Below the pieces are notes generated by a model. The model had not been told where the DNA came from and searched no databases. It worked only from the letters and a program-made list of their open reading frames with translations. From contig JAPNXP010000002.1 of assembly GCA_028753945.1 (NCBI GenBank), positions 124,001-188,000 on the forward strand: a stretch of DNA of 64,000 nucleotides, read 5' to 3'. The position numbers and the translations under genes are program-made. This DNA is from Hexactinellida sp. DTS-2022 (Eukaryota > Porifera > Hexactinellida). Positions 8,601-63,955 of the stretch are shown one piece after another. Position 1 is the first letter of the stretch. Each line of letters starts with the position of its first letter.

Positions 8601-11600
8601 ATCGAGTTCCTTCTCGAACTGGGACAGGATTTCTCCGAATTTCCGCATAAGCGTGTTCTTAATGGCCTCCCTAGACCCTATGGTTTGGTACTTCTGTAGC
8701 AGGTCAAACGCGCCCTCAGAGGACCGAAGCGCGCGAAACGATTCGTCGATAAACTGAATCGCTTGCTGCTCCATTTGGTCCACATTGTTCTGGAAAGACA
8801 CCATCAGAGTCTGCCAATCGGATTGCTTGCTAGGGTCGAATATGTCGAATCGGACAATTTCAAAAGGTGTCACTAGGTTTGTCACCTTTGTTCGCACTCT
8901 ATCGATACTCTTCGACTCTCCTAAAACAGAGGTGTCAAAATATGAATATAAAGGTGTTATAAACCAAGGAATTATCCAGCAGCGCGAGACCTTTTGGAGC
9001 ATGCATTTACAAAATTTGAATTTAGGAGTGCGAAAATTTGGAATCCTTTCCTATACCGTAACATTAATTTATGATTTAGGCGTATGAAAATAGGATCAGA
9101 CCATAATTAGGAGCGTATTTACAAATGCCTGTATAATACTATGATTAGGAGCGTATATAAAGGTGTTCTAAACTCATTAAACACCTGTGACAGCCTTCAG
9201 ATCGTCCCCGAATATGTTAAAGAAGTCCTCCATTGTCTGCGCCAGTGTATTTATGTCCTCGCAGATCCCAGACATGTAGTTGGTGACGCGGAAGAGCTTG
9301 TTCCTGTCGAACTCCCACCTCGCGTCCCGGCCCGAGCTCTCGATCTTAGCCCGCACCTCCGTATACGAGCCGAACCAGAGCTCCAGCGTCTGGCGAGCGT
9401 CCGTGGTCAGCTAGGACACAGGGTAAAGCGTGATTAATGATAAGGGTATAGTATAGTATACGTAGTTAATAAGCCATATATACGCAGAGGCGTGCTGGTG
9501 CAAGGGGCCCAGGCGGGATTTAGGCCTTACTACTACTCCGAATTTTTTCAGGGGCCCTACGGGCCCACGGTAAGCAACGTTTCATATGGTCCGGACGGAG
9601 GCCCCGGGCGAGATTCCCACCTGCCATGTATGGCCAGAACGCCCCTGGTCCTAGATATAGAAAGTATGAATGTTTCATTATGTTATTGGTTGATATAATG
9701 AATTTTGTATCCCAACGAAGGTCTACTGTATATAATGTGCTATATATTGTACTCAAAATGGGTACAATGTTATAAAGTGGATATATAAATTGTGAACTCC
9801 TTTGTAGAATGTCCTAGATACAGAAAGTATGATTGTTTCATTATGTTATGGTTGATATAATGAATTTCGAATCCCAACGAAGGTCTACTGTATATAATGT
9901 GCTGTATATTGTACTCAAAATGCGTACAATGTTATAAAGTGGATAGATAAATTGCGAATACTAACGAGGTTCTCCTTTGTAGAATGTCCTAGATATAGAA
10001 AGGATGATTGTCTCATTATGTTATGGTTGATATAATTAATTTCGGATCCCAACGAAGGTCTACTGTATATAATGTGCTGTATATTGTACGCAAAATGCGT
10101 ACAATGTTATAAAGTGGATATATAAATTGCGAATACTAACGAGGATCTCCTTTGTAGAATGTCCTAGATACAGAAAGTATGATTGTTTCATTATGTTATG
10201 GTTGATATAATGAATTTCGAATCCCAACGAAGGTCTACTGTATATAATGTGCTGTATATTGTACGCAAAATGCGTACAATGTTATAAAGTGGATATATAA
10301 ATTGCGAATACTAACGAGGTTCTCCTTTGTAGAATGTCCTAGATACAGAAAGTATGATTATTTCATTATGTTATGGTTGATATAATTAATTTCGAATCCC
10401 AACGAAGGTCTACTGTATATAATGTGCTGTATATTGTACTCAAAATGCGTACAATGTTATAAAGTGGATATATAAATTGCGAATACTAACGAGGTTCTCC
10501 TTTGTAGAATGTCCTAGATATAGAAAGGATGATTGTCTCATTATGTTATGGTTGATATAATTAATTTCGGATCCCAACGAAGGTCTACTGTATATAATGT
10601 GCTGTATATTGTACGCAAAATGCGTACAATGTTATAAAGTGGATATATAAATTGCGAATACTAACGAGGATCTCCTTTGTAGAATGTCCTAGATACAGAA
10701 AGTATGATTGTTTCATTATGTTATGGTTGATATAATGAATTTCGAATCCCAACGAAGGTCTACTGTATATAATGTGCTGTATATTGTACGCAAAATGCGT
10801 ACAATGTTATAAAGTGGATATATAAATTGCGAATACTAACGAGGATCTCCTTTGTAGAATGTCCTAGATACAGAAAGTATGATTGTTTCATTATGTTATG
10901 GTTGATATAATGAATTTCGAATCCCAACGCAGGTCTACTGTATACAATGTGCTGTATATTGTACTCAAAATGCGTACAATGTTATAAAGTGGATATATAA
11001 ATTGCGAATACTAACGAGGTTCTCCTTTGTAGAATGTCCTAGATATAGAAAGGATGATTGTTTCATAATGTTATTGGTTGATATAATGAATTTCGAATCC
11101 CAAAGAAGGTCTACTGCATATAATGTGCTATATATTGTACTCAAAATGCGCACAATGTTATAAAGTGGATATATAAATTGCGAATACTAACGAGGTTCTC
11201 CTTTGTAGAATGTCCTAGATACAGAAAGGATGATTGTTACATTATGTTATTGGTTGATATAATGAATTTCGAATCCCAACGCAGGTCTACTGTATACAAT
11301 GTGCTGTATATTGTACTCAAAATGCGTACAATGTTATAAAGTGGATATATAAATTGCGAATACTAACGAGGTTCTCCTTTGTAGAATGTCCTAGATACAG
11401 AAAGTATGATTATTTCATTATGTTATGGTTGATATAATTAATTTCGAATCCCAACGAAGGTCTACTGTATATAATGTGCTGTATATTGTACTCAAAATGC
11501 GTACAATGTTATAAAGTGGATATATAAATTGCGAAAACTAACGAGGTTCTCCTTTGTAGAATGTCCTAGATACAGAAAGCATGAATGTTTCATTATGTTA

Positions 11601-14600
11601 TGGTTGATAAAATGAATTTCGAATCCCAACGAAGGTCTACTGTATATAATGTGCTGTATATTGTACTCAAAATGCGTACAATGTTATAAAGTGGATAGAT
11701 AAATTGCGAATACTAACGAGGTTCTCCTTTGTAGAATGTCCTAGATATAGAAAGGATGATTGTCTCATTATGTTATGGTTGATATAATTAATTTCGGATC
11801 CCAACGAAGGTCTACTGTATATAATGTGCTGTATATTGTACGCAAAATGCGTACAATGTTATAAAGTGGATATATAAATTGCGAATACTAACGAGGATCT
11901 CCTTTGTAGAATGTCCTAGATACAGAAAGTATGATTGTTTCATTATGTTATGGTTGATATAATGAATTTCGAATCCCAACGCAGGTCTACTGTATACAAT
12001 GTGCTGTATATTGTACTCAAAATGCGTACAATGTTATAAAGTGGATAGATAAATTGCGAATACTAACGAGGTTCTCCTTTGTAGAATGTCCTAGATATAG
12101 AAAGGATGATTGTCTCATTATGTTATGGTTGATATAATTAATTTCGGATCCCAACGAAGGTCTACTGTATATAATGTGCTGTATATTGTACGCAAAATGC
12201 GTACAATGTTATAAAGTGGATATATAAATTGCGAATACTAACGAGGATCTCCTTTGTAGAATGTCCTAGATACAGAAAGCATGAATGTTTCATTATGTTA
12301 TGGTTGATATAATGAATTTCGAATCCCAACGAAGGTCTACTGTATATAATGTGCTGTATATTGTACTCAAAATGCGTACAATGTTATAAAGTGGATAGAT
12401 AAATTGCGAATACTAACGAGGTTCTCCTTTGTAGAATGTCCTAGATATAGAAAGGATGATTGTCTCATTATGTTATGGTTGATATAATTAATTTCGGATC
12501 CCAACGAAGGTCTACTGTATATAATGTGCTGTATATTGTACGCAAAATGCGTACAATGTTATAAAGTGGATATATAAATTGCGAATACTAACGAGGATCT
12601 CCTTTGTAGAATGTCCTAGATACAGAAAGTATGATTGTTTCATTATGTTATGGTTGATATAATGAATTTCGAATCCCAACGAAGGTCTACTGTATATAAT
12701 GTGCTGTATATTGTACGCAAAATGCGTACAATGTTATAAAGTGGATATATAAATTGCGAATACTAACGAGGATCTCCTTTGTAGAATGTCCTAGATACAG
12801 AAAGTATGATTGTTTCATTATGTTATGGTTGATATAATGAATTTCGAATCCCAACGCAGGTCTACTGTATACAATGTGCTGTATATTGTACTCAAAATGC
12901 GTACAATGTTATAAAGTGGATATATAAATTGCGAATACTAACGAGGTTCTCCTTTGTAGAATGTCCTAGATATAGAAAGGATGATTGTTTCATAATGTTA
13001 TTGGTTGATATAATGAATTTCGAATCCCAAAGAAGGTCTACTGCATATAATGTGCTATATATTGTACTCAAAATGCGCACAATGTTATAAAGTGGATATA
13101 TAAATTGCGAATACTAACGAGGTTCTCCTTTGTAGAATGTCCTAGATACAGAAAGGATGATTGTTACATTATGTTATTGGTTGATATAATGAATTTCGAA
13201 TCCCAACGCAGGTCTACTGTATACAATGTGCTGTATATTGTACTCAAAATGCGTACAATGTTATAAAGTGGATATATAAATTGCGAATACTAACGAGGTT
13301 CTCCTTTGTAGAATGTCCTAGATACAGAAAGTATGATTATTTCATTATGTTATGGTTGATATAATTAATTTCGGATCCCAACGAAGGTCTACTGTATATA
13401 ATGTGCTGTATATTGTACGCAAAATGCGTACAATGTTATAAAGTGGATATATAAATTGCGAATACTAACGAGGATCTCCTTTGTAGAATGTCCTAGATAC
13501 AGAAAGTATGATTGTTTCATTATGTTATGGTTGATATAATGAATTTCGAATCCCAACGAAGGTCTACTGTATATAATGTGCTGTATATTGTACGCAAAAT
13601 GCGTACAATGTTATAAAGTGGATATATAAATTGCGAATACTAACGAGGATCTCCTTTGTAGAATGTCCTAGATACAGAAAGTATGATTGTTTCATTATGT
13701 TATGGATAATATAATGAATTTCGAATCCCAACGAAGGTCTACTGTATATAATGTGCTGTATATTGTACGCAAAATGCGTACAATGTTATAAAGTGGATAT
13801 ATAAATTGCGAATACTAACGAGGATCTCCTTTGTAGAATGTCCTAGATACAGAAAGTATGATTGTTTCATTATGTTATGGTTGATATAATGAATTTCGAA
13901 TCCCAACGAAGGTCTACTGTATATAATGTGCTGTATATTGTACGCAAAATGCGTACAATGTTATAAAGTGGATATATAAATTGCGAATACTAACGAGGTT
14001 CTCCTTTGTAGAATGTCCTAGATACAGAAAGGATGATTGTTTCATAATGTTATTGGTTGATATAATGAATTTCGAGTCCCAACGAAGGTCTACTGTATAC
14101 AATGTGCTGTATATTGTACTCAAAATGCGTACAATGTTATAAAGTGGATATATAAATTGCGAATACTAACGAGGTTCTCCTTTGTAGAATGTCCTAGATA
14201 CAGAAAGTATGATTATTTCATTATGTTATGGTTGATATAATTAATTTCGAATCCCAACGAAGGTCTACTGTATATAATGTGCTGTATATTGTACTCAAAA
14301 TGCGTACAATGTTATAAAGTGGATAGATAAATTGCGAATACTAACGAGGTTCACCTTTGTAGAATGTCCTAGATATAGAAAGGATGATTGTCTCATTATG
14401 TTATGGTTGATATAATTAATTTCGGATCCCAACGAAGGTCTACTGTATATAATGTGCTGTATATTGTACGCAAAATGCGTACAATGTTATAAAGTGGATA
14501 TATAAATTGCGAATACTAACGAGGATCTCCTTTGTAGAATGTCCTAGATACAGAAAGTATGATTGTTTCATTATGTTATGGTTGATATAATGAATTTCGG

Positions 14601-17600
14601 ATCCCAACGAAGGTCTACTGTATATAATGTGCTGTATATTGTACGCAAAATGCGTACAATGTTATAAAGTGGATATATAAATTGCGAATACTAACGAGGT
14701 TCTCCTTTGTAGAATGTCCTAGATACAGAAAGTATGATTATTTCATTATGTTATGGTTGATATAATTAATTTCGAATCCCAACGAAGGTCTACTGTATAT
14801 AATGTGCTGTATATTGTACTCAAAATGCGTACAATGTTATAAAGTGGATATATAAATTGCGAATACTAACGAGGTTCTCCTTTGTAGAATGTCCTAGATA
14901 TAGAAAGGATGATTGTCTCATTATGTTATGGTTGATATAATTAATTTCGGATCCCAACGAAGGTCTACTGTATATAATGTGCTGTATATTGTACGCAAAA
15001 TGCGTACAATGTTATAAAGTGGATATATAAATTGCGAATACTAACGAGGATCTCCTTTGTAGAATGTCCTAGATACAGAAAGTATGATTGTTTCATTATG
15101 TTATGGTTGATATAATGAATTTCGAATCCCAACGAAGGTCTACTGTATATAATGTGCTGTATATTGTACGCAAAATGCGTACAATGTTATAAAGTGGATA
15201 TATAAATTGCGAATACTAACGAGGATCTCCTTTGTAGAATGTCCTAGATACAGAAAGTATGATTGTTTCATTATGTTATGGTTGATATAATGAATTTCGA
15301 ATCCCAACGCAGGTCTACTGTATACAATGTGCTGTATATTGTACTCAAAATGCGTACAATGTTATAAAGTGGATATATAAATTGCGAATACTAACGAGGT
15401 TCTCCTTTGTAGAATGTCCTAGATATAGAAAGGATGATTGTTTCATAATGTTATTGGTTGATATAATGAATTTCGAATCCCAAAGAAGGTCTACTGCATA
15501 TAATGTGCTATATATTGTACTCAAAATGCGCACAATGTTATAAAGTGGATATATAAATTGCGAATACTAACGAGGTTCTCCTTTGTAGAATGTCCTAGAT
15601 ACAGAAAGGATGATTGTTACATTATGTTATTGGTTGATATAATGAATTTCGAATCCCAACGCAGGTCTACTGTATACAATGTGCTGTATATTGTACTCAA
15701 AATGCGTACAATGTTATAAAGTGGATATATAAATTGCGAATACTAACGAGGTTCTCCTTTGTAGAATGTCCTAGATACAGAAAGTATGATTATTTCATTA
15801 TGTTATGGTTGATATAATTAATTTCGAATCCCAACGAAGTTCTACTGTATATAATGTGCTGTATATTGTACTCAAAATGCGTACAATGTTATAAAGTGGA
15901 TATATAAATTGCGAAAACTAACGAGGTTCTCCTTTGTAGAATGTCCTAGATACAGAAAGCATGAATGTTTCATTATGTTATGGTTGATAAAATGAATTTC
16001 GAATCCCAACGAAGGTCTACTGTATATAATGTGCTGTATATTGTACTCAAAATGCGTACAATGTTATAAAGTGGATAGATAAATTGCGAATACTAACGAG
16101 GTTCTCCTTTGTAGAATGTCCTAGATATAGAAAGTATGATTGTTTCATTATGTTATGGTTGATATAATGAATTTCGAATCCCAACGAAGGTCTACTGTAT
16201 ATAATGTGCTGTATATTGTACGCAAAATGCGTACAATGTTATAAAGTGGATATATAAATTGCGAATACTAACGAGGATCTCCTTTGTAGAATGTCCTAGA
16301 TACAGAAAGTATGATTGTTTCATTATGTTATGGTTGATATAATGAATTTCGAATCCCAACGCAGGTCTACTGTATACAATGTGCTGTATATTGTACTCAA
16401 AATGCGTACAATGTTATAAAGTGGATAGATAAATTGCGAATACTAACGAGGTTCTCCTTTGTAGAATGTCCTAGATATAGAAAGGATGATTGTCTCATTA
16501 TGTTATGGTTGATATAATTAATTTCGGATCCCAACGAAGGTCTACTGTATATAATGTGCTGTATATTGTACGCAAAATGCGTACAATGTTATAAAGTGGA
16601 TATATAAATTGCGAATACTAACGAGGATCTCCTTTGTAGAATGTCCTAGATACAGAAAGTATGATTGTTTCATTATGTTATGGTTGATATAATGAATTTC
16701 GAATCCCAACGAAGGTCTACTGTATATAATGTGCTGTATATTGTACGCAAAATGCGTACAATGTTATAAAGTGGATATATAAATTGCGAATACTAACGAG
16801 GTTCTCCTTTGTAGAATGTCCTAGATACAGAAAGTATGATTATTTCATTATGTTATGGTTGATATAATTAATTTCGGATCCCAACGAAGGTCTACTGTAT
16901 ATAATGTGCTGTATATTGTACGCAAAATGCGTACAATGTTATAAAGTGGATATATAAATTGCGAATACTAACGAGGATCTCCTTTGTAGAATGTCCTAGA
17001 TACAGAAAGTATGATTGTTTCATTATGTTATGGTTGATATAATGAATTTCGAATCCCAACGAAGGTCTACTGTATATAATGTGCTGTATATTGTACGCAA
17101 AATGCGTACAATGTTATAAAGTGGATATATAAATTGCGAATACTAACGAGGTTCTCCTTTGTAGAATGTCCTAGATACAGAAAGGATGATTGTTACATTA
17201 TGTTATTGGTTGATATAATGAATTTCGAATCCCAACGCAGGTCTACTGTATACAATGTGCTGTATATTGTACTCAAAATGCGTACAATGTTATAAAGTGG
17301 ATATATAAATTGCGAATACTAACGAGGTTCTCCTTTGTAGAATGTCCTAGATACAGAAAGTATGATTATTTCATTATGTTATGGTTGATATAATTAATTT
17401 CGAATCCCAACGAAGGTCTACTGTATATAATGTGCTGTATATTGTACTCAAAATGCGTACAATGTTATAAAGTGGATATATAAATTGCGAAAACTAACGA
17501 GGTTCTCCTTTGTAGAATGTCCTAGATACAGAAAGTATGATTATTTCATTATGTTATGGTTGATATAATTAATTTCGGATCCCAACGAAGGTCTACTGTA

Positions 17601-20600
17601 TATAATGTGCTGTATATTGTACGCAAAATGCGTACAATGTTATAAAGTGGATATATAAATTGCGAATACTAACGAGGATCTCCTTTGTAGAATGTCCTAG
17701 ATACAGAAAGTATGATTGTTTCATTATGTTATGGTTGATATAATGAATTTCGAATCCCAACGAAGGTCTACTGTATATAATGTGCTGTATATTGTACGCA
17801 AAATGCGTACAATGTTATAAAGTGGATATATAAATTGCGAATACTAACGAGGATCTCCTTTGTAGAATGTCCTAGATACAGAAAGTATGATTGTTTCATT
17901 ATGTTATGGTTGATATAATGAATTTCGAATCCCAACGAAGGTCTACTGTATATAATGTGCTGTATATTGTACGCAAAATGCGTACAATGTTATAAAGTGG
18001 ATATATAAATTGCGAATACTAACGAGGTTCTCCTTTGTAGAATGTCGTAGATTCAGAAAGGATGATTGTTACATTATGTTATTGGTTGATATAATGAATT
18101 TCGAATCCCAACGCAGGTCTACTGTATACAATGTGCTGTATATTGTACTCAAAATGCGTACAATGTTATAAAGTGGATATATAAATTGCGAATACTAACG
18201 AGGTTCTCCTTTGTAGAATGTCCTAGATACAGAAAGTATGATTATTTCATTATGTTATGGTTGATATAATTAATTTCGAATCCCAACGAAGGTCTACTGT
18301 ATATAATGTGCTGTATATTGTACTCAAAATGCGTACAATGTTATAAAGTGGATATATAAATTGCGAAAACTAACGAGGTTCTCCTTTGTAGAATGTCCTA
18401 GATACAGAAAGTATGATTATTTCATTATGTTATGGTTGATAGAATGAATTTCGAATCCCAACGAAGGTCTACTGTATACAATGTGCTGAATATTGTACTC
18501 AAAATGCGTACAATGTTATAAAGTGGATATATAAATTGCGAAAACTAACGAGGATCTCCTTTGTAGAATGTCCTAGATACAGAAAGTATGATTGTTTCAT
18601 TATGTTATTGGTTGATATAATGAATTTCGGATCCCAACGAAGGTCTACTGTATATAATGTGCTGTATATTGTACGCAAAATGCGTACAATGTTATAAAGT
18701 GGATATATAAATTGCGAAAACTAACGAGGTTCTCCTTTGTAGAATGTCCTGGATACAGAAAGCATGAATGTTTCATTATGTTATGGTTGATATAATGAAT
18801 TTCGGATCCCAACGAAGGTCTACTGTATATAATGTGCTGTATATTGTACGCAAAATGCGTACAATGTTATAAAGTGGATATATAAATTGCGAATACTAAC
18901 GAGGTTCTCCTTTGTAGAATGTCCTAGATACAGAAAGTATGATTATTTCATTATGTTATGGTTGATATAATTAATTTCGAATCCCAACGAAGGTCTACTG
19001 TATATAATGTGCTGTATATTGTACGCAAAATGCGTACAATGTTATAAAGTGGATACATAAATTGCGAATACTAACGAGGTTCTCCTTTGTAGAATGTCCT
19101 AGATACAGAAAGGATGATTGTTACATTATGTTATTGGTTGATATAATGAATTTCGAATCCCAACGCAGGTCTACTGTATACAATGTGCTGTATATTGTAC
19201 TCAAAATGCGTACAATGTTATAAAGTGGATATATAAATTGCGAATACTAACGAGGTTCTCCTTTGTAGAATGTCCTAGATACAGAAAGTATGATTATTTC
19301 ATTATGTTATGGTTGATATAATTAATTTCGAATCCCAACGAAGGTCTACTGTATATAATGTGCTGTATATTGTACTCAAAATGCGTACAATGTTATAAAG
19401 TGGATATATAAATTGCGAAAAGTAACGAGGATCTCCTTTGTAGAATGTCCTAGATACAGAAAGCATGAATGTTTCATTATGTTATGGTTGATATAATGAA
19501 TTTCGAATCCCAACGAAGGTCTACTGTATATAATGTGCTGTATATTGTACTCAAAATGCGTACAATGTTATAAAGTGGATAGATAAATTGCGAATACTAA
19601 CGAGGTTCTCCTTTGTAGAATGTCCTAGATATAGAAAGGATGATTGTCTCATTATGTTATGGTTGATATAATTAATTTCGGATCCCAACGAAGGTCTACT
19701 GTATATAATGTGCTGTATATTGTACGCAAAATGCGTACAATGTTATAAAGTGGATATATAAATTGCGAATACTAACGAGGATCTCCTTTGTAGAATGTCC
19801 TAGATACAGAAAGTATGATTGTTTCATTATGTTATGGTTGATATAATGAATTTCGAATCCCAACGCAGGTCTACTGTATACAATGTGCTGTATATTGTAC
19901 TCAAAATGCGTACAATGTTATAAAGTGGATAGATAAATTGCGAATACTAACGAGGTTCTCCTTTGTAGAATGTCCTAGATATAGAAAGGATGATTGTCTC
20001 ATTATGTTATGGTTGATATAATTAATTTCGGATCCCAACGAAGGTCTACTGTATATAATGTGCTGTATATTGTACGCAAAATGCGTACAATGTTATAAAG
20101 TGGATATATAAATTGCGAATACTAACGAGGATCTCCTTTGTAGAATGTCCTAGATACAGAAAGCATGAATGTTTCATTATGTTATGGTTGATATAATGAA
20201 TTTCGAATCCCAACGAAGGTCTACTGTATATAATGTGCTGTATATTGTACTCAAAATGCGTACAATGTTATAAAGTGGATAGATAAATTGCGAATACTAA
20301 CGAGGTTCTCCTTTGTAGAATGTCCTAGATATAGAAAGGATGATTGTCTCATTATGTTATGGCTGATATAATTAATTTCGGATCCCAACGAAGGTCTACT
20401 GTATATAATGTGCTGTATATTGTACGCAAAATGCGTACAATGTTATAAAGTGGATATATAAATTGCGAATACTAACGAGGATCTCCTTTGTAGAATGTCC
20501 TAGATACAGAAAGTATGATTGTTTCATTATGTTATGGTTGATATAATGAATTTCGAATCCCAACGAAGGTCTACTGTATATAATGTGCTGTATATTGTAC

Positions 20601-23600
20601 GCAAAATGCGTACAATGTTATAAAGTGGATATATAAATTGCGAATACTAACGAGGTTCTCCTTTGTAGAATGTCCTAGATACAGAAAGTATGATTATTTC
20701 ATTATGTTATGGTTGATATAATTAATTTCGGATCCCAACGAAGGTCTACTGTATATAATGTGCTGTATATTGTACGCAAAATGCGTACAATGTTATAAAG
20801 TGGATATATAAATTGCGAATACTAACGAGGATCTCCTTTGTAGAATGTCCTAGATACAGAAAGTATGATTGTTTCATTATGTTATGGTTGATATAATGAA
20901 TTTCGAATCCCAACGAAGGTCTACTGTATATAATGTGCTGTATATTGTACGCAAAATGCGTACAATGTTATAAAGTGGATATATAAATTGCGAATACTAA
21001 CGAGGTTCTCCTTTGTAGAATGTCCTAGATACAGAAAGGATGATTGTTACATTATGTTATTGGTTGATATAATGAATTTCGAATCCCAACGCAGGTCTAC
21101 TGTATACAATGTGCTGTATATTGTACTCAAAATGCGTACAATGTTATAAAGTGGATATATAAATTGCGAATACTAACGAGGTTCTCCTTTGTAGAATGTC
21201 CTAGATACAGAAAGTATGATTATTTCATTATGTTATGGTTGATATAATTAATTTCAAATCCCAACGAAGGTCTACTGTATATAATGTGCTGTATATTGTA
21301 CTCAAAATGCGTACAATGTTATAAAGTGGATATATAAATTGCGAAAACTAACGAGGGTCTCCTTTGTAGAATGTCCTAGATACAGAAAGCATGAATGTTT
21401 CATTATGTTATGGTTGATATAATGAATTTCGAATCCCAACGAAGGTCTACTGTATATAGTGTGCTGTATATTGTACTCAAAATGCGTACAATGTTATAAA
21501 GTGGATAGATAAATTGCGAATACTAACGAGGTTCTCCTTTGTAGAATGTCCTAGATATAGAAAGGATGATTGTCTCATTATGTTATGGTTGATATAATTA
21601 ATTTCGGATCCCAACGAAGGTCTACTGTATATAATGTGCTGTATATTGTACGCAAAATGCGTACAATGTTATAAAGTGGATATATAAATTGCGAATACTA
21701 ACGAGGATCTCCTTTGTAGAATGTCCTAGATACAGAAAGTATGATTGTTTCATTATGTTATGGTTGATATAATGAATTTCGAATCCCAACGAAGGTCTAC
21801 TGTATATAATGTGCTGTATATTGTACGCAAAATGCGTACAATGTTATAAAGTGGATATATAAATTGCGAATACTAACGAGGTTCTCCTTTGTAGAATGTC
21901 CTAGATACAGAAAGTATGATTATTTCATTATGTTATGGTTGATATAATTAATTTCGAATCCCAACGAAGGTCTACTGTATATAATGTGCTGTATATTGTA
22001 CTCAAAATGCGTACAATGTTATAAAGTGGATATATAAATTGCGAATACTAACGAGGTTCTCCTTCGTAGAATGTCCTAGATATAGAAAGGATGATTGTCT
22101 CATTATGTTATGGTTGATATAATTAATTTCGGATCCCAACGAAAGTCTACTGTATATAATGTGCTGTATATTGTACGCAAAATGCGTACAATGTTATAAA
22201 GTGGATATATAAATTGCGAATACTAACGAGGATCTCCTTTGTAGAATGTCCTAGATACAGAAAGTATGATTGTTTCATTATGTTATGGTTGATATAATGA
22301 ATTTCGAATCCCAACGAAGGTCTACTGTATATAATGTGCTGTATATTGTACGCAAAATGCGTACAATGTTATAAAGTGGATATATAAATTGCGAATACTA
22401 ACGAGGATCTCCTTTGTAGAATGTCCTAGATACAGAAAGCATGAATGTTTCATTATGTTATGGTTGATATAATGAATTTCGAATCCCAACGAAGGTCTAC
22501 TGTATATAATGTGCTGTATATTGTACTCAAAATGCGTACAATGTCATAAAGTGGATAGATAAATTGCGAATACTAACGAGGTTCTCCTTTGTAGAATGTC
22601 CTAGATATAGAAAGGATGATTGTCTCATTATGTTATGGTTGATATAATTAATTTCGGATCCCAACGAAGGTCTACTGTATATAATGTGCTGTATATTGTA
22701 CGCAAAATGCGTACAATGTTATAAAGTGGATATATAAATTGCGAATACTAACGAGGATCTCCTTTGTAGAATGTCCTAGATACAGAAAGTATGATTGTTT
22801 CATTATGTTATGGTTGATATAATGAATTTCGAATCCCAACGAAGGTCTACTGTATATAATGTGCTGTATATTGTACGCAAAATGCGTACAATGTTATAAA
22901 GTGGATATATAAATTGCGAATACTAACGAGGTTCTCCTTTGTAGAATGTCCTAGATACAGAAAGTATGATTATTTCATTATGTTATGGTTGATATAATTA
23001 ATTTCGGATCCCAACGAAGGTCTACTGTATATAATGTGCTGTATATTGTACGCAAAATGCGTACAATGTTATAAAGTGGATATATAAATTGCGAATACTA
23101 ACGAGGATCTCCTTTGTAGAATGTCCTAGATACAGAAAGTATGAATGTTTCATTATGTTATGGTTGATAGAATGAAATTCGAATCCCAACGAAGGTCTAC
23201 TGTATACAATGTGCTGTATATTGTACGCAAAATGCGTACAATGTTATAAAGTGGATATATAAATTGCGAATACTAACGAGGTTCTCCTTTGTAGAATGTC
23301 CTAGATACAGAAAGTATGATTATTTCATTATGTTATGGTTGATATAATTAATTTCGGATCCCAACGAAGGTCTACTGTATATAATGTGCTGTATATTGTA
23401 CTCAAAATGCGTACAATGTTATAAAGTGGATATATAAATTGCGAAAACTAACGAGGTTCTCCTTTGTAGAATGTCCTAGATACAGAAAGCATGAATGTTT
23501 CATTATGTTATGGATGATAAAATGAATTTCGAATCCCAACGAAGGTCTACTGTATATAATGTGCTGTATATTGTACTCAAAATGCGTACAATGTTATAAA

Positions 23601-41600: not shown

Positions 41601-44600
41601 GTGCTGTATATTGTACGCAAAATGCGTACAATGTTATAAAGTGGATATATAAATTGCGAATACTAACGAGGTTCTCCTTTGTAGAATGTCCTAGATACAG
41701 AAAGTATGATTATTTCATTATGTTATGGTTGATATAATTAATTTCGGATCCCAACGAAGGTCTACTGTATATAATGTGCTGTATATTGTACGCAAAATGC
41801 GTACAATGTTATAAAGTGGATATATAAATTGCGAATACTAACGAGGATCTCCTTTGTAGAATGTCCTAGATACAGAAAGTATGATTGTTTCATTATGTTA
41901 TGGTTGATATAATGAATTTCGAATCCCAACGAAGGTCTACTGTATATAATGTGCTGTATATTGTACGCAAAATGCGTACAATGTTATAAAGTGGATATAT
42001 AAATTGCGAATACTAACGAGGATCTCCTTTGTAGAATGTCCTAGATACAGAAAGTATGATTGTTTCATTATGTTATGGTTGATATAATGAATTTCGGATC
42101 CCAACGAAGGTCTACTGTATATAATGTGCTGTATATTGTACGCAAAATGCGTACAATGTTATAAAGTGGATATATAAATTGCGAATACTAACGAGGTTCT
42201 CCTTTGTAGAATGTCCTAGATACAGAAAGGATGATTGTTACATTATGTTATTGGTTGATATAATGAATTTCGAATCCCAACGCAGGTCTACTGTATACAA
42301 TGTGCTGTATATTGTACTCAAAATGCGTACAATGTTATAAAGTGGATATATAAATTGCGAATACTAACGAGGTTCTCCTTTGTAGAATGTCCTAGATATA
42401 GAAAGGATGATTGTCTCATTATGTTATGGTTGATATAATTAATTTCGGATCCCAACGAAGGTCTACTGTATATAATGTGCTGTATATTGTACGCAAAATG
42501 CGTACAATGTTATAAAGTGGATATATAAATTGCGAAAACTAACGAGGTTCTCCTCTGTAGAATGTCCTAGATACAGAAAGCATGAATGTTTCATTATGTT
42601 ATGGTTGATATAATGAATTTCGAATCCCAACGAAGGTCTACTGTATATAATGTGCTGTATATTGTACGCAAAATGCGTACAATGTTTTAAAGTGGATATA
42701 TAAATTGCGAATACTAACGAGGATCTCCTTTGTAGAAAGTCCTAGATACAGAAAGTATGATTGTTTCATTATGTTATTGGTTGATATAATGAATTTCGAA
42801 TCCCAACGAAGGTCTACTGTATATAATGTGCTGTATATTGTACTCAAAATGCGTACAATGTTATAAAGTGGATATATAAATTGCGAATACTAACGAGGTT
42901 CTCCTTTGTAGAATGTCCTAGATACAGAAAGTATGATTATTTCATTATGTTATGGTTGATATAATGAATTTCGAATCCCAACGAAGGTCTACTGTATATA
43001 ATGTGCTGTATATTGTACGCAAAATGCGTACAATGTTATAAAGTGGATAGATAAATTGCGAATATAACGAGGTTCTCCTTTGTAGAATGTCCTAGATATA
43101 GAAAGGATGATTGTCTCATTATGTTATGGTTAATATAATTAATTTCGGATCCCAACGAAGGTCTACTGTATATAATGTGCTGTATATTGTACGCAAAATG
43201 CGTACAATGTTATAAAGTGGATATATAAATTGCGAATACTAACGAGGATCTCCTTTGTAGAATGTCCTAGATACAGAAAGTATGATTGTTTCATTATGTT
43301 ATGGTTGATATAATGAATTTCGAATCCCAACGAAGGTCTACTGTATATAATGTGCTGTATATTGTACGCAAAATGCGTACAATGTTATAAAGTGGATATA
43401 TAAATTGCGAATACTAACGAGGTTCTCCTTTGTAGAATGTCCTAGATACAGAAAGGATGATTGTTACATTATGTTATTGGTTGATATAATGAATTTCGAA
43501 TCCCAACGCAGGTCTACTGTATACAATGTGCTGTATATTGTACGCAAAATGCGTACAATGTTATAAAGTGGAGATATAAATTGCGAATACTAACGAGGTT
43601 CTCCTTTGTAGAATGTCCTAGATACAGAAAGGATGATTGTTACATTATGTTATTGGTTGATATAATGAATTTCGAATCCCAACGCAGGTCTACTGTATAC
43701 AATGTGCTGTATATTGTACGCAAAATGCGTACAATGTTATAAAGTGGATAGATAAATTGCGAATACTAACGAGGTTCTCCTTTGTAGAATGTCCTAGATA
43801 CAGAAAGTATGATTATTTCATTATGTTATGGTTGATATAATTAATTTCGGATCCCAACGAAGGTCTACTGTATATAATGTGCTGTATATTGTACTCAAAA
43901 TGCGTACAATGTTATAAAGTGGATATATAAATTGCGAAAACTAACGAGGTTCTCCTTTGTAGAATGTCCTAGATACAGAAAGCATGAATGTTTCATTATG
44001 TTATGGTTGATATAATGAATTTCGAATCCCAACGAAGGTCTACTGTATATAATGTGCTGTATATTGTACTCAAAATGCGTACAATGTTATAAAGTGGATA
44101 TATAAATTGCGAAAACTAACGAGGTTCTCCTTTGTAGAATGTCCTAGATACAGAAAGCATGAATGTTTCATTATGTTATGGTTGATATAATGAATTTCGA
44201 ATCCCAACGAAGGTCTACTGTATATAATGTGCTGTATATTGTACTCAAAATGCGTACAATGTTATAAAGTGGATAGATAAATTGCGAATACTAACGAGGT
44301 TCTCCTTTGTAGAATGTCCTAGATATAGAAAGGATGATTGTCTCATTATGTTATGGTTGATATAATTAATTTCGGATCCCAACGAAGGTCTACTGTATAT
44401 AATGTGCTGTATATTGTACGCAAAATGCGTACAATGTTATAAAGTGGATATATAAATTGCGAATACTAACGAGGATCTCCTTTGTAGAATGTCCTAGATA
44501 CAGAAAGTATGATTGTTTCATTATGTTATGGTTGATATAATGAATTTCGAATCCCAACGAAGGTCTACTGTATATAATGTGCTGTATATTGTACGCAAAA

Positions 44601-47600
44601 TGCGTACAATGTTATAAAGTGGATATATAAATTGCGAATACTAACGAGGTTCTCCTTTGTAGAATGTCCTAGATACAGAAAGTATGATTATTTCATTATG
44701 TTATGGTTGATATAATTAATTTCGGATCCCAACGAAGGTCTACTGTATATAATGTGCTGTATATTGTACGCAAAATGCGTACAATGTTATAAAGTGGATA
44801 TATAAATTGCGAATACTAACGAGGATCTCCTTTGTAGAATGTCCTAGATACAGAAAGTATGATTGTTTCATTATGTTATGGTTGATATAATGAATTTCGA
44901 ATCCCAACGAAGGTCTACTGTATATAATGTGCTGTATATTGTACGCAAAATGCGTACAATGTTATAAAGTGGATATATAAATTGCGAATACTAACGAGGT
45001 TCTCCTTTGTAGAATGTCCTAGATACAGAAAGTATGATTATTTCATTATGTTATGGTTGATATAATTAATTTCGGATCCCAACGAAGGTCTACTGTATAT
45101 AATGTGCTGTATATTGTACGCAAAATGCGTACAATGTTATAAAGTGGATATATAAATTGCGAATACTAACGAGGATCTCCTTTGTAGAATGTCCTAGATA
45201 CAGAAAGTATGATTGTTTCATTATGTTATGGTTGATATAATGAATTTCGAATCCCAACGAAGGTCTACTGTATATAATGTGCTGTATATTGTACGCAAAA
45301 TGCGTACAATGTTATAAAGTGGATATATAAATTGCGAATACTAACGAGGATCTCCTTTGTAGAATGTCCTAGATACAGAAAGTATGATTGTTTCATTATG
45401 TTATGGTTGATATTATGAATTTCGGATCCCAACGAAGGTCTACTGTATATAATGTGCTGTATATTGTACGCAAAATGCGTACAATGTTATAAAGTGGATA
45501 TATAAATTGCGAATACTAACGAGGTTCTCCTTTGTAGAATGTCCTAGATACAGAAAGGATGATTGTTACATTATGTTATTGGTTGATATAATGAATTTCG
45601 AATCCCAACGCAGGTCTACTGTATACAATGTGCTGTATATTGTACTCAAAATGCGTACAATGTTATAAAGTGGATATATAAATTGCGAATACTAACGAGG
45701 TTCTCCTTTGTAGAATGTCCTAGATATAGAAAGGATGATTGTCTCATTATGTTATGGTTGATATAATTAATTTCGGATCCCAACGAAGGTCTACTGTATA
45801 TAATGTGCTGTATATTGTACGCAAAATGCGTACAATGTTATAAAGTGGATATATAAATTGCGAATACTAACGAGGATCTCCTATGTAGAATGTCCTAGAT
45901 ACAGAAAGTATGATTGTTTCATTATGTTATGGTTGATATAATGAATTTCGAATCCCAACGAAGGTCTACTGTATATAATGTGCTGTATATTGTACGCAAA
46001 ATGCGTACAATGTTATAAAGTGGATATATAAATTGCGAATACTAACGAGGATCTCCTTTGTAGAATGTCCTAGATACAGAAAGTATGATTGTTTCATTAT
46101 GTTATGGTTGATATAATTAATTTCGAATCCCAACGAAGGTCTACTGTATATAATGTGCTGTATATTGTACTCAAAATGCGTACAATGTTATAAAGTGGAT
46201 ATATAAATTGCGAAAACTAACGAGGTTCTCCTCTGTAGAATGTCCTAGATACAGAAAGCATGAATGTTTCATTATGTTATGGTTGATATAATGAATTTCG
46301 AATCCCAACGAAGGTCTACTGTATATAATGTGCTGTATATTGTACTCAAAATGCGTACAATGTAATAAAGTGGATAGATAAATTGCGAATACTAACGAGG
46401 TTCTCCTTTGTAGAATGTCCTAGATATAGAAAGGATGATTGTCTCATTATGTTATGGTTGATATAATTAATTTCGGATCCCAACGAAGGTCTACTGTATA
46501 TAATGTGCTGTATATTGTACGCAAAATGCGTACAATGTTATAAATGGATATATAAATTGCGAATACTAACGAGGATCTCCTTTGTAGAATGTCCTAGATA
46601 CAGAAAGTATGATTGTTTCATTATGTTATGGTTGATATAATGAATTTCGAATCCCAACGAAGGTCTACTGTATATAATGTGCTGTATATTGTACGCAAAA
46701 TGCGTACAATGTTATAAAGTGGATATATAAATTGCGAATACTAACGAGGTTCTCCTTTGTAGAATGTCCTAGATACAGAAAGTATGATTATTTCATTATG
46801 TTATGGTTGATATAATTAATTTCGGATCCCAACGAAGGTCTACTGTATATAATGTGCTGTATATTGTACGCAAAATGCGTACAATGTTATAAAGTGGATA
46901 TATAAATTGCGAATACTAACGAGGTTCTCCTTTGTAGAATGTCCTAGATACAGAAAGTATGATTATTTCATTATGTTATGGTTGATATAATTAATTTCGA
47001 ATCCCAACGAAGGTCTACTGTATATAATGTGCTGTATATTGTACGCAAAATGCGTACAATGTTATAAAGTGGATATATAAATTGCGAATACTAACGAGGT
47101 TCTCCTTTGTAGAATGTCCTAGATACAGAAAGTATGATTATTTCATTATGTTATGGTTGATATAATTAATTTCGGATCCCAACGAAGGTCCACTGTATAT
47201 AATGTGCTGTATATTGTACGCAAAATGCGTACAATGTTATAAAGTGGATATATAAATTGCGAATACTAACGAGGTTCTCCTTTGTAGAATGTCCTAGATA
47301 CAGAAAGCATGAATGTTTCATTATGTTATGGTTGATATAATGAATTTCGAATCCCAACGAAGGTCTACTGTATATAATGTGCTGTATATTGTACGCAAAA
47401 TGCGTACAATGTTATAAAGTGGATAGATAAATTGCGAATACTAACGAGGTTCTCCTTTGTAGAATGTCCTAGATATAGAAAGGATGATTGTCTCATTATG
47501 TTATGGTTGATATAATTAATTTCGGATCCCAACGAAGGTCTACTGTATATAATGTGCTGTATATTGTACGCAAAATGCGTACAATGTTATAAAGTGGATA

Positions 47601-50600
47601 TATAAATTGCGAATACTAACGAGGATCTCCTTTGTAGAATGTCCTAGATACAGAAAGTATGATTGTTTCATTATGTTATGGTTGATATAATGAATTTCGA
47701 ATCCCAACGAAGGTCTACTGTATATAATGTGCTGTATATTGTACGCAAAATGCGTACAATGTTATAAAGTGGATATATAAATTGCGAATACTAACGAGGT
47801 TCTCCTTTGTAGAATGTCCTAGATACAGAAAGTATGATTATTTCATTATGTTATGGTTGATATAATTAATTTCGAATCCCAACGAAAGTCTACTGTATAT
47901 AATGTGCTGTATATTGTACTCAAAATGCGTACAATGTTATAAAGTGGATATATAAATTGCGAATACTAACGAGGTTCTCCTTTGTAGAATGTCCTAGATA
48001 TAGAAAGGATGATTGTCTCATTATGTTATGGTTGATATAATTAATTTCGGATCCCAACGAAAGTCTACTGTATATAATGTGCTGTATATTGTACGCAAAA
48101 TGCGTACAATGTTATAAAGTGGATATATAAATTGCGAATACTAACGAGGATCTCCTTTGTAGAATGTCCTAGATACAGAAAGTATGAATGTTTCATTATG
48201 TTATGGTTGATATAATGAATTTCGAATCCCAACGAAGGTCTACTGTATATAATGTGCTGTATATTGTACGCAAAATGCGTACAATGTTATAAAGTGGATA
48301 TATAAATTGCGAATACTAACGAGGATCTCCTTTGTAGAATGTCCTAGATACAGAAAGTATGATTGTTTCATTATGTTATGGTTGATATAATGAATTTCGA
48401 ATCCCAACGAAGGTCTACTGTATATAATGTGCTATATATTGTACTCAAAATGCGTACAATGTTATAAAGTGGATATATAAATTGCGAAAACTAACGAGGT
48501 TCTCCTTTGTAGAATGTCCTAGATACAGAAAGCATGAATGTTTCATTATGTTATGGTTGATATAATGAATTTCGAATCCCAACGAAGGTCTACTGTATAT
48601 AATGTGCTGTATATTGTACTCAAAATGCGTACAATGTCATAAAGTGGATAGATAAATTGCGAATACTAACGAGGTTCTCCTTTGTAGAATGTCCTAGATA
48701 TAGAAAGGATGATTGTCTCATTATGTTATGGTTGATATAATTAATTTCGGATCCCAACGAAGGTCTACTGTATATAATGTGCTGTATATTGTACGCAAAA
48801 TGCGTACAATGTTATAAAGTGGATATATAAATTGCGAATACTAACGAGGATCTCCTATGTAGAATGTCCTAGATACAGAAAGTATGATTGTTTCATTATG
48901 TTATGGTTGATATAATGAATTTCGAATCCCAACGAAGGTCTACTGTATATAATGTGCTGTATATTGTACGCAAAATGCGTACAATGTTATAAAGTGGATA
49001 TATAAATTGCGAATACTAACGAGGATCTCCTTTGTAGAATGTCCTAGATACAGAAAGTATGATTGTTTCATTATGTTATGGTTGATATAATTAATTTCGA
49101 ATCCCAACGAAGGTCTACTGTATATAATGTGCTGTATATTGTACTCAAAATGCGTACAATGTTATAAAGTGGATATATAAATTGCGAAAACTAACGAGGT
49201 TCTCCTCTGTAGAATGTCCTAGATACAGAAAGCATGAATGTTTCATTATGTTATGGTTGATATAATGAATTTCGAATCCCAACGAAGGTCTACTGTATAT
49301 AATGTGCTGTATATTGTACTCAAAATGCGTACAATGTAATAAAGTGGATAGATAAATTGCGAATACTAACGAGGTTCTCCTTTGTAGAATGTCCTAGATA
49401 TAGAAAGGATGATTGTCTCATTATGTTATGGTTGATATAATTAATTTCGGATCCCAACGAAGGTCTACTGTATATAATGTGCTGTATATTGTACGCAAAA
49501 TGCGTACAATGTTATAAATGGATATATAAATTGCGAATACTAACGAGGATCTCCTTTGTAGAATGTCCTAGATACAGAAAGTATGATTGTTTCATTATGT
49601 TATGGTTGATATAATGAATTTCGAATCCCAACGAAGGTCTACTGTATATAATGTGCTGTATATTGTACGCAAAATGCGTACAATGTTATAAAGTGGATAT
49701 ATAAATTGCGAATACTAACGAGGTTCTCCTTTGTAGAATGTCCTAGATACAGAAAGTATGATTATTTCATTATGTTATGGTTGATATAATTAATTTCGGA
49801 TCCCAACGGAGGTCTACTGTATATAATGTGCTGTATATTGTACGCAAAATGCGTACAATGTTATAAAGTGGATATATAAATTGCGAATACTAACGAGGTT
49901 CTCCTTTGTAGAATGTCCTAGATACAGAAAGTATGATTATTTCATTATGTTATGGTTGATATAATTAATTTCGAATCCCAACGAAGGTCTACTGTATATA
50001 ATGTGCTGTATATTGTACGCAAAATGCGTACAATGTTATAAAGTGGATATATAAATTGCGAATACTAACGAGGTTCTCCTTTGTAGAATGTCCTAGATAC
50101 AGAAAGTATGATTATTTCATTATGTTATGGTTGATATAATTAATTTCGGATCCCAACGAAGGTCCACTGTATATAATGTGCTGTATATTGTACGCAAAAT
50201 GCGTACAATGTTATAAAGTGGATATATAAATTGCGAATACTAACGAGGTTCTCCTTTGTAGAATGTCCTAGATACAGAAAGCATGAATGTTTCATTATGT
50301 TATGGTTGATATAATGAATTTCGAATCCCAACGAAGGTCTACTGTATATAATGTGCTGTATATTGTACGCAAAATGCGTACAATGTTATAAAGTGGATAG
50401 ATAAATTGCGAATACTAACGAGGTTCTCCTTTGTAGAATGTCCTAGATATAGAAAGGATGATTGTCTCATTATGTTATGGTTGATATAATTAATTTCGGA
50501 TCCCAACGAAGGTCTACTGTATATAATGTGCTGTATATTGTACGCAAAATGCGTACAATGTTATAAAGTGGATATATAAATTGCGAATACTAACGAGGAT

Positions 50601-53600
50601 CTCCTTTGTAGAATGTCCTAGATACAGAAAGTATGATTGTTTCATTATGTTATGGTTGATATAATGAATTTCGAATCCCAACGAAGGTCTACTGTATATA
50701 ATGTGCTGTATATTGTACGCAAAATGCGTACAATGTTATAAAGTGGATATATAAATTGCGAATACTAACGAGGTTCTCCTTTGTAGAATGTCCTAGATAC
50801 AGAAAGTATGATTATTTCATTATGTTATGGTTGATATAATTAATTTCGAATCCCAACGAAAGTCTACTGTATATAATGTGCTGTATATTGTACTCAAAAT
50901 GCGTACAATGTTATAAAGTGGATATATAAATTGCGAATACTAACGAGGTTCTCCTTTGTAGAATGTCCTAGATATAGAAAGGATGATTGTCTCATTATGT
51001 TATGGTTGATATAATTAATTTCGGATCCCAACGAAAGTCTACTGTATATAATGTGCTGTATATTGTACGCAAAATGCGTACAATGTTATAAAGTGGATAT
51101 ATAAATTGCGAATACTAACGAGGATCTCCTTTGTAGAATGTCCTAGATACAGAAAGTATGAATGTTTCATTATGTTATGGTTGATATAATGAATTTCGAA
51201 TCCCAACGAAGGTCTACTGTATATAATGTGCTGTATATTGTACGCAAAATGCGTACAATGTTATAAAGTGGATATATAAATTGCGAATACTAACGAGGAT
51301 CTCCTTTGTAGAATGTCCTAGATACAGAAAGTATGATTGTTTCATTATGTTATGGTTGATATAATGAATTTCGAATCCCAACGAAGGTCTACTGTATATA
51401 ATGTGCTATATATTGTACTCAAAATGCGTACAATGTTATAAAGTGGATATATAAATTGCGAAAACTAACGAGGTTCTCCTTTGTAGAATGTCCTAGATAC
51501 AGAAAGCATGAATGTTTCATTATGTTATGGTTGATATAATGAATTTCGAATCCCAACGAAGGTCTACTGTATATAATGTGCTGTATATTGTACTCAAAAT
51601 GCGTACAATGTCATAAAGTGGATAGATAAATTGCGAATACTAACGAGGTTCTCCTTTGTAGAATGTCCTAGATATAGAAAGGATGATTGTCTCATTATGT
51701 TATGGTTGATATAATTAATTTCGGATCCCAACGAAGGTCTACTGTATATAATGTGCTGTATATTGTACGCAAAATGCGTACAATGTTATAAAGTGGATAT
51801 ATAAATTGCGAATACTAACGAGGATCTCCTTTGTAGAATGTCCTAGATACAGAAAGTATGATTGTTTCATTATGTTATGGTTGATATAATGAATTTCGAA
51901 TCCCAACGAAGGTCTACTGTATATAATGTGCTGTATATTGTACGCAAAATGCGTACAATGTTATAAAGTGGATATATAAATTGCGAATACTAACGAGGAT
52001 CTCCTTTGTAGAATGTCCTAGATACAGAAAGTATGATTGTTTCATTATGTTATGGTTGATATAATGAATTTCGAATCCCAACGAAGGTCTACTGTATATA
52101 ATGTGCTGTATATTGTACTCAAAATGCGTACAATGTTATAAAGTGGATAGATAAATTGCGAATACTAACGAGGTTCTCCTTTGTAGAATGTCCTAGATAT
52201 AGAAAGGATGATTGTCTCATTATGTTATGGTTGATATAATTAATTTCGGATCCCAACGAAGGTCTACTGTATATAATGTGCTGTATATTGTACGCAAAAT
52301 GCGTACAATGTTATAAAGTGGATATATAAATTGCGAATACTAACGAGGATCTCCTTTGTAGAATGTCCTAGATACAGAAAGTATGATTGTTTCATTATGT
52401 TATGGTTGATATAATGAATTTCGAATCCCAACGAAGGTCTACTGTATATAATGTGCTATATATTGTACTCAAAATGCGTACAATGTTATAAAGTGGATAT
52501 ATAAATTGCGAATACTAACGAGCTTCTCCTTTGTAGAATGTCCTAGATATAGAAAGGATGATTGTTTCATAATGTTATTGGTTGATATAATGAATTTCGA
52601 ATCTCAACGAAGGTCTACTGTATACAATGTGCTATATATTGTACTCAAAATGCGTACAATGTTATAAAGTAGATATATAAATTGCGAATACTAACGATCT
52701 TCTCCTTTGTAGAATGTCCTAGAGTCATAATGCGTTCATATTAATCGGAATTCGTATTAACCGGTTTTATTTGCATTGAAAAGGCTTTGAAAGGGACTGA
52801 AATAGTGTTCGTAATAACGAAGTTCAACTGTATAACTCGGTTATATCGAGTGTATAGTGGTGTTCGTTACTATAACAAGTAGAATTTTCACGAAATTTGC
52901 TTGCTAATAGGCGAACACCAGTATTAACTAACCGAGTTTATCATATATAGCAATATATACTGCTTATTAATTAAAACAAATAGTACTTACAACCCTGGTT
53001 ATACCCCAGTTTTACAGTACCAATACAACATTCCATACCTGCTTTACGGTTCCCAGGGTGTGTGGACTCCTGTTTTTGAAGAGGAACTTGATATTAAGAG
53101 TGGCCTGCACCTTTTGTGCCAGCTGCCACGCGATGCGCTCCATCAGAGGAACCATCTGATCGTCGCGGTTAAAGTGCCGCGATATTATCCACACCATCCT
53201 GAGGGCGTTCATCATTGGGGGGATCGAGTCCTTAATCAGGAGGAAGCTCTTGCCTAGAGGTGATAGTTCCGGTATATACACATGTTAGTACCGGTAAGGA
53301 TGTACAGTAGCTCTGTTAGTAGGAACACGAATAAGGAGTACAAGGTTTAATTCCCCTAGCCTATACAAATGAATGCAAGTGACTCCGGTTAATACGAATT
53401 CCGGTGAATACTAACATATTAATACGGTCCCCTGGTGTTCCTATTAACAGAGTCTACTGTATTAATACGGTCCCCTGGTGTTCCTATTAACAGAGTCTAC
53501 AGTAGGTGGTTAGTTCCAGTTCCGCATTATAGTTCCGATTGTCTTACCAGCTGTGATATTCTTGAAGTGTCTCTCCAGAGTCATAAGGAACCTAACATTG

Positions 53601-62810: not shown

Positions 62811-63137
62811 CTTTAGATATGTTTGTTCACAGAATATTTGGTGCTTGATGTAGGAAGTTGAAAAAGGTTGGGAATTGCTGCCATAAATAATTTAATTTAT
62901 TGCTTTGTGAAAATAAATTATAATGTAGATAAATGTACAATATTTAATCCTTTTATTTAATTGAATATACGTATACTCTGAAAATGTCGCAATATACAGA
63001 GAATAACACCTGTTACTGCTATAATATAGTTACAGCAATAACATCTGCTATTCTTTACATAAAACATCTGCTATTCCTTCAAAACTACAGAGCACGAAAA
63101 GTATAAATAGAGACAAGTTGTGAGAACTTGAGATGCT
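62811..63137. other. AT-rich spacer before the 42-bp minisatellite
   Basis: No coding, RNA or repeat signal stands out beyond a weak doublet of CATCTGCTATTC near 63045-63075. Confidence 0.4.
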
Positions 63138-63955
63138 CTTATAGGAGCCACTGTCGCTCCTATAAGAGAATCGGATGTTCTTATAGGAGCGACAGTGGCT
63201 CCTATAAGAGAATCGGATGTTCTTATAGGAGCGACAGTGGCTCCTATAAGAGAATCGGATGTTCTTATAGGAGCCACTGTCGCTCCTATAAGAGAATCGG
63301 ATGTTCTTATAGGAGCGACAGTGGCTCCTATAAGAGAATCGGATGTTCTTATAGGAGCGACAGTGGCTCCTATAAGAGAATCGGATGTTCTTATAGGAGC
63401 GACAGTCGCTCCTATAAGAGCATCGAATGTTCTTATAGGAGCCACTGTCGCTCCTATAAGAGAATCGATAGTTCTTATTGGAGCCACTGTCGCTCCTATA
63501 AGAGCAACCGATGCTCTTATAGGAGCCACTGTCGCTCCTATAAGAGAATCGATAGTTCTTATTGGAGCCACTGTCGCTCCTATAAGAGCAACCGATGCTC
63601 TTATAGGAGCCACTGTCGCTCCTATAAGAGTATCGGAAGCTCTTATTGGAGCGACAGTAGCTCCGATAAGAACATTCGATGCTCTTATAGGAGCGACTGT
63701 CGCTCCTATAAGAGCAACCGATGCTCTTATAGGAGCCACTGTCGCTCCTATAAGAGTATCGGAAGCTCTTATTGGAGCGACAGTAGCTCCGATAAGAACA
63801 TTCGATGCTCTTATAGGAGCTACTGTCGCTCCTATAAGAGCAACCGATGCTCTTATAGGAGCCACTGTCGCTCCTATAAGAGTATCGGAAGCTCTTATTG
63901 GAGCGACAGTAGCTCCGATAAGAGCATCGGAAGCTCGTATAGGAGCGACAGATGA
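63138..63955. repeat. 42-bp palindromic minisatellite, about 19.5 units
   Basis: Units start at 63138 and every 42 bp after that up to 63936, with no length change in any unit. Each unit contains a near-palindrome of 29 bases, CTTATAGGAGCGAC-A-GTCGCTCCTATAAG in its best form, plus a 13-base variable linker such as AGAATCGGATGTT, AGCATCGAATGTT, AGCAACCGATGCT or AGTATCGGAAGCT. Units 13-15 and 16-18 form a repeated 126-bp trimer, and units 9-12 form alternating dimers. Since 42 is divisible by three, both strands have open frames. The minus-strand frame (63071-63985, 304 codons) reads repeated IGATVAPIRAS. The plus-strand frame (63128-63955, 275 codons) reads repeated CSYRSD-SYK. Neither is recognised as a protein family. 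Confidence 0.95.

Follow-up and report, generated by a model that had tools for sequence, protein, structure and literature searches.

A 43.6-kb satellite-filled intron in a sponge axonemal dynein gene and the genome-wide satellite family to which it belongs

Introduction

Transcription and large, homogeneous satellite arrays are generally regarded as a poor match, and where such an array lies within a gene the question arises how it came to be there and what its presence says about the gene. This question is posed by a 64,000-bp stretch of the genome of the sponge Hexactinellida sp. DTS-2022 (GenBank assembly GCA_028753945.1, contig JAPNXP010000002.1, positions 124,001 to 188,000), in the following called the window. 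It contains the 5′ part of a gene for the axonemal dynein heavy chain DNAH10, the sixth intron of which is filled almost wholly with satellite DNA. An initial annotation of the window had likened this intron to the giant satellite introns of kl-3 and kl-5 in Drosophila and had taken it as a possible pointer to sex linkage, to testis expression or to a property of dynein genes. Both kl-3 and kl-5 are dynein heavy chain genes, and the Drosophila Y-loop class is not known outside Y-linked male-fertility genes.

From the analysis presented here it appears likely that DNAH10 is an axonemal dynein gene of the ordinary kind and that its intron 6 holds the local copy of a transposon-related, locally amplified satellite, which is spliced out. 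Arrays of 43 kb and 20 kb of one family were found in introns of genes for which transcription and splicing are to be expected, including the gene of the universal translation factor eIF5B. In this genome it could therefore be studied how polymerase and the splicing machinery deal with satellite DNA that is not on a sex chromosome, and whether one site can serve both gene transcription and a centromere. In addition, a locally varying satellite is linked here to a dispersed transposon-like element of the same genome.

Results and Discussion

The assembly comprises 18 contigs with 112.4 Mb in total, here termed chromosomes C1 to C18, and the window corresponds to C11:124,001-188,000. Seventeen coding exons of DNAH10 lie on its minus strand, counted from a presumed start codon that was picked by eye; their borders were placed by hand from open frames (Table 1). 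Spliced together, these exons yield 2,423 codons (2,423 aa) with zero stops, and GT-AG ends are present at all 16 introns. Fifteen introns measure between 60 and 634 bp, whereas intron 6 spans 43,628 bp. Residues 1-681 of the spliced product, when aligned with DNAH10 of PDB entry 8j07, which we take to be the human protein, gave a single significant stretch, which pairs query 102-681 with chain 142-708 at 491.6 bits and passes straight over the exon 6/exon 7 junction, located in phase 0 at residue 455/456; residues 1-101 had no significant match to this chain. These results bear out the initial annotation, which had described an intact axonemal dynein gene with a 43.6-kb satellite intron, a phase-0 join of exons 6 and 7 with the expected tail sequence on either side, and sizes below 650 bp for all other introns in the window.

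The identity of the gene was assessed along its length. Exon 17 by itself scored 1,530.9 bits against DNAH10 compared to 852.5 against DNAH9, the best match was DNAH10 for tail, AAA and C-terminal pieces alike, and exons below the window carry DNAH10 on to chain residue 4434 of 4589. Judged by these best matches, the gene is to be regarded as the orthologue of DNAH10. The matches to the tail exons sit at the window locus, where they flank the array on both sides, and no second copy of DNAH10 was present among the 13 genome matches (14 of 14 candidates scored), the others to the tail being one exon-1-like fragment and four paralogues with 18-29% identity. Since the frame is intact and no second copy was found, intron 6 can be considered real in this assembly. 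The same observations bear on the idea that exons 1-6 and exon 7 onwards are transcribed as separate units and brought together by trans-splicing, or that the 5′ half is dead. Nothing directly supports this idea, and it is opposed by the 17 exons without stop or frame break, by the GT-AG ends on both sides of the array and by the fact that no second copy was found, which renders it extremely improbable.

Two further dynein sequences were noted outside the window. The first 50 residues of DNAH10 are duplicated at C11:198038-198187, 94% identical, on the opposite strand and about 18 kb from exon 1. At C1:1353398-1354747 lies a match to a dynein heavy chain paralogue with 22% identity to the DNAH10 tail, which has a 4,499-aa open frame and is apparently intronless.

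The array itself is highly regular. Tandem Repeats Finder reported a repeat at 9797-52723 with a period of 175, 245.1 copies, 96% matches and a score of 78,751, and a partial monomer prolongs the array further down (94% over 149 bp). By an anchor count, for which the + strand was scanned, 246 monomer starts were found in one unbroken row and in the same orientation, which agrees with the approximate number given in the initial annotation. The 245 spacings between them amount to 175 bp in 215 cases, 176 bp in 25, 174 bp in four and 184 bp in one. On average, 215 monomers diverge by 2.1% from their own consensus. A higher-order repeat was ruled out by the flat mean identity (0.965-0.972 at lags 1-40), with no multimer period. 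Poly(A) signals (two motifs, searched over 43 kb) were absent from the sense strand and occurred five times on the other; as 73% of shuffled monomers likewise lack a poly(A) motif, no depletion is claimed.

An array from elsewhere might have been joined into DNAH10 by an assembly error. Satellite arrays are a classic site of wrong joins, and it was the assembled sequence alone that was examined. Against such an error stands the fact that the exons on either side of the array form one gene in one order. Moreover, the array is distinct from the arrays sampled on six other chromosomes, no N occurs anywhere in the window, there are 94 distinct sequences among 245 monomers, and exact repeats within the array reach 2,021 bp at most. 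Given these last two values, ordinary long reads would be able to order the array. As the same architecture also recurs in eIF5B (see below), an assembly error appears very unlikely.

Searching the genome with a 30-base core of the monomer (up to 3 mismatches) yielded 2,971 matches compared to 0 for a backward control. Arrays were placed by reading small samples, so that the census is incomplete and the number of chromosomes a lower bound; large arrays of the family were found on at least 10 of the 18 chromosomes (Table 1). Samples from C1, C4, C6, C9, C12 and C16 showed mean identities of 82-95% to the consensus of the array in DNAH10, compared to 2.1% divergence inside that array, and the left array of C18 had about 74% identity to its nearest relative in the sample set. 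The core was absent from the samples of C10, C13 and the right array of C18, yet a second probe was present in them, and the sample of the left C18 array contained neither. Unit lengths across the family are 175, about 155 and 88 bp. Based on assumed lengths, the densities of seven sampled arrays account for about 2,372 of the total of 2,971 core matches, and the remaining ones may come from stretches of C1 and C6 outside the samples or from undetected arrays. Gapped and rare-variant patterns aimed at listing every array gave 0, 3, 6 and 3 matches, and in a search with the C13 sample, for which 14 of 681 candidates were scored, C13 itself was absent among the matches listed.

A counterpart to the DNAH10 intron is located in the eIF5B gene on C16, where a 20,936-bp intron with GT-AG ends encloses the array. 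The array is flanked above by the exon ending in ...LVQIKLELNTQ (last base 168,617) and below by the exon that opens with GLNVALFWEKF (first base 147,680); joined, they align with eIF5B of PDB entry 7tql over 163 of 163 residues in a single stretch (180 bits). On C6, arrays lie between exons of a Lon protease gene that is partly repeated (C6:72900-169000). Its protease exon (profile 674-736) was found seven times between 73.5 and 166 kb, alternating with seven copies of the preceding exon (586-687), and N-terminal matches occurred only once in the repeated region; 34 of 61 candidates of this profile search were scored. Samples of 300 bp taken between the two exons were satellite at 85, 95, 105 and 135 kb. 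A further Lon gene is present outside the repeated region at C6:5.22 Mb.

An intronic position is claimed for the arrays of C11 and C16; for C4, C9 and C12 only neighboring exons or frames are reported. About 300 bp separate the end of the C4 array from an open frame that looks by eye like the continuation of a cyclic nucleotide phosphodiesterase, the C9 array begins at a distance of about 1.3 kb from what by eye is the first open frame of a kinase gene, and exons of uncertain identity lie on both flanks of the C12 array. A rule for the orientation of arrays relative to the gene was sought and discarded, the arrays of C11 and C16 being opposite to that of C6. The right array of C18 directly adjoins transporter sequence (Sugar_tr 36.1 bits; MFS_1 below cut-off). 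The right-hand hits on C18 occur in either orientation, which may reflect a further gene that was multiplied along with the satellite.

All this identifies the satellite as a genome-wide family with no speciality for dyneins. Because the family occurs on at least ten chromosomes, one sex chromosome cannot explain the arrays, and because it is also found in eIF5B and between exons of Lon, nothing about it is special to dyneins or testis; the corresponding suggestions of the initial annotation are hence not upheld. An arrangement that is specific to dyneins or linked to sex, as in the Drosophila Y-loops, with a special germline program, could draw on the presence of a giant satellite intron in a gene for an axonemal dynein and on the Drosophila precedent (PMC6508621). 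In view of the distribution just described, and of a unit and a size unlike those of the precedent, such an arrangement is most unlikely.

A further reading concerns the position of the arrays on the chromosomes. They lie near one chromosome end, except for the medial array of C1, and nine of the ten carriers showed a single site (in several of them one end was covered), C18 having two. This could mean that the arrays are the centromeres, or the core satellite thereof, of an acrocentric karyotype, with the centromere of C11 in DNAH10 intron 6, that of C16 in eIF5B and that of C6 in Lon. In favor of this are the single sites and the distances of 74-323 kb from one end, with the exception of C1 and the right array of C18. 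The medial array of C1, the largest chromosome, is what an end-to-end fusion would give. Local variants with differing unit lengths, a near-nucleosome unit length and an inner palindrome of the unit, which occurs 240 times in the array of DNAH10, point in the same direction. On the other hand, none of 64 samples of 200 bp from the other eight chromosomes (C2, C3, C5, C7, C8, C14, C15 and C17), taken at 95, 155, 205 and 265 kb from both ends and leaving other positions uncovered, contained satellite, although by coordinates this grid would strike nine of the ten known carriers (all but C1). These empty samples and the two sites on C18 also weaken the notion of one array per chromosome. The unit contains the first nine bases of the CENP-B box, but the box was dropped as a candidate motif after a shuffle test: three of nine positions were mismatched and 752 of 1,000 shuffles were equal or better, so that the match is no better than chance. 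A CENP-B box is not known to be required in every species. A literature search for centromeric satellites of sponges (Porifera) found no paper, which carries little weight. Overall, a centromeric nature of the arrays is a possibility that we regard as rather unlikely. Somewhat more doubtful still is that kinetochore satellites are nested in the conserved, transcribed genes DNAH10, eIF5B and Lon, each gene being spliced through its own centromere.

The anatomy of the unit provides indications on the origin of the family. The 175-bp unit consists of two diverged copies of a unit of about 88 bp, with a global alignment score of its halves of 28.0 compared to 15.5 for the best of 2,000 dinucleotide shuffles, and C6 carries an 88-bp form of the satellite. 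Each half opens with sequence resembling an end of a dispersed element, the ends of which are inverted (CAGTAGAACCTCGTTAATACGAACACC); none of 2,000 shuffles was as good for either half, the split into halves and the compared stretches having been picked by eye ahead of the shuffle test. This element, which resembles a miniature inverted-repeat transposable element (MITE) and from the look of its ends may be of the pogo/Tigger type, is present in at least two introns of DNAH10. Sequence shared between the unit and the ends of a dispersed inverted-repeat element, the feature that marks a MITE-derived satellite, is present here. At the left edge of the C16 array the satellite meets a cut edge of the element, the match of 88% over 135 columns reaching the last base, and at the right edge of the array in DNAH10 a fragment of the element lies within about 10 bp.

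The preferred explanation, that of an ordinary dynein gene with a transposon-related satellite in one of its introns, would then involve the following steps. Ends of the element may have given rise to a short tandem unit, or may have been captured by one, and this unit of about 88 bp, with a start resembling the end of a small transposon-like element, would have founded the satellite family; two diverged units would have formed the 175-bp monomer. Units may have been seeded in introns and elsewhere, at least sometimes beside such elements, and each seed would have been amplified and homogenized locally into an array that extends over about 20-170 kb and on most carriers lies close to one chromosome end. 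Transcription and splicing would proceed through the array, and intronic arrays would persist because they are spliced out. Since the array in DNAH10 is enclosed entirely by good splice sites, a donor on one side and an acceptor on the other, its removal is expected to leave the protein unaffected.

Several points weigh against parts of this explanation. Removal of the array by splicing is deduced from the gene structure in the DNA. Of the 11 edges of arrays that were read, only two have a match to the element on their outer side at E <= 0.05 and nine do not, so that seeding by the element may not be general. Both directions, from element to satellite and the reverse, are compatible with the data, and the assumption of a once short intron 6 has a single genome as its basis. 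On C6, no satellite was seen in the samples of 300 bp taken at 115 and 125 kb, and the placement between consecutive Lon exons comes from exon matches and samples, which makes the intron there a putative one.

The remainder of the window contains three other features. An uninterrupted gene for an NHL-repeat protein (56196-57428) had 740 closely related proteins at E <= 0.001 in ENA contigs, the top match being 83% identical, and thus probably belongs to a large gene family. A 989-aa open frame at 58931-61897 looks coiled-coil-like by eye and had no Pfam match at E <= 0.001. At 63132-63949, a 42-bp minisatellite is present in 19.5 copies, the unit of which is largely an inverted repeat (CTCTTATAGGAGCGAC...GTCGCTCCTATAAGAG).

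Table 1. Positions of the DNAH10 exons, intron 6, the satellite arrays and the MITE-like element. Rows without a chromosome name refer to the window.
Feature	Position	Strand	Remarks
Intron 6 of DNAH10	9411..53038	-	43,628 bp, GT-AG, phase 0; DNAH10 alignment unbroken across it
Satellite array	9648..52723	+ (consensus strand)	246 head-to-tail 175-bp monomer starts from 9797 plus partial monomer at low end
DNAH10 coding exons 1-6 (53039..55606)	55606-55318, 55076-54831, 54527-54402, 54254-53923, 53704-53548, 53253-53039	-	
DNAH10 coding exons 7-12	9410-9185, 8920-8469, 8220-7790, 7635-7419, 7105-6877, 6377-6163	-	
DNAH10 coding exons 13-17	5608-5379, 5318-5101, 4466-4285, 3771-2915, 2649-1	-	gene runs on below window
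MITE-like element copy	5655..5846	.	ends CAGTAGAACCTCGTTA.../...TAACGAGGTTCTAC; intron between exons 12 and 13; read by eye
MITE-like element, second copy	7214..7399	.	intron between exons 10 and 11
MITE-like element fragment	52733..52834	.	starts within about 10 bp of array edge; blastn against the two window copies, best E 7e-8
C1 array	9.878 Mb to at least 10.013 Mb (of 17.64)		medial; 9.960 Mb sample non-satellite
C4 array	up to 5.79 of 5.91 Mb		
C6 array	from 74 kb		88-bp form
C9 array	2.239-2.325 of 2.555 Mb		
C10 array	at least 196-257 kb, then again 261 kb		
C11 array	134-177 kb		DNAH10 intron 6
C12 array	6.262-6.338 of 6.572 Mb		
C13 array	at least 84-104 kb		
C16 array	148,423-168,551		inside eIF5B intron
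C18 left array	155 to 323 kb		possibly interrupted
C18 right array	6.53-6.60 of 6.62 Mb		

Comparison With Known Systems

In Drosophila, kl-3 and kl-5 have giant introns filled with megabases of simple satellite repeats, according to Fingerhut et al. (2019; PMC6508621). Like these, the sponge locus is a dynein heavy chain gene with an intron that consists almost wholly of satellite, and to this extent the parallel drawn in the initial annotation stands. It fails in size and unit, as megabases of simple repeats (PMC6508621) are opposed here by 43.6 kb of a 175-bp unit, and a restriction to Y-linked male-fertility genes is not seen, the family being found in eIF5B, in Lon and on ten chromosomes. 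The parallel to Y-loops is a resemblance in architecture only.

A further comparison is that with alpha satellite; Tigger-like elements, with ends able to carry a CENP-B box, are tied to CENP-B and alpha satellite (PMC7325037). A near-nucleosome unit, local variants and sequence like transposon ends are shared with the sponge family, which differs in having no CENP-B box, in not being found at the sampled positions on eight of 18 chromosomes and in having an array within an intact gene.

Satellites derived from MITEs or other transposons are known (PMC6947457). In the sponge, too, the unit resembles the ends of a small element and some arrays meet copies of it; the arrays found here differ in being very large and nested in conserved genes.

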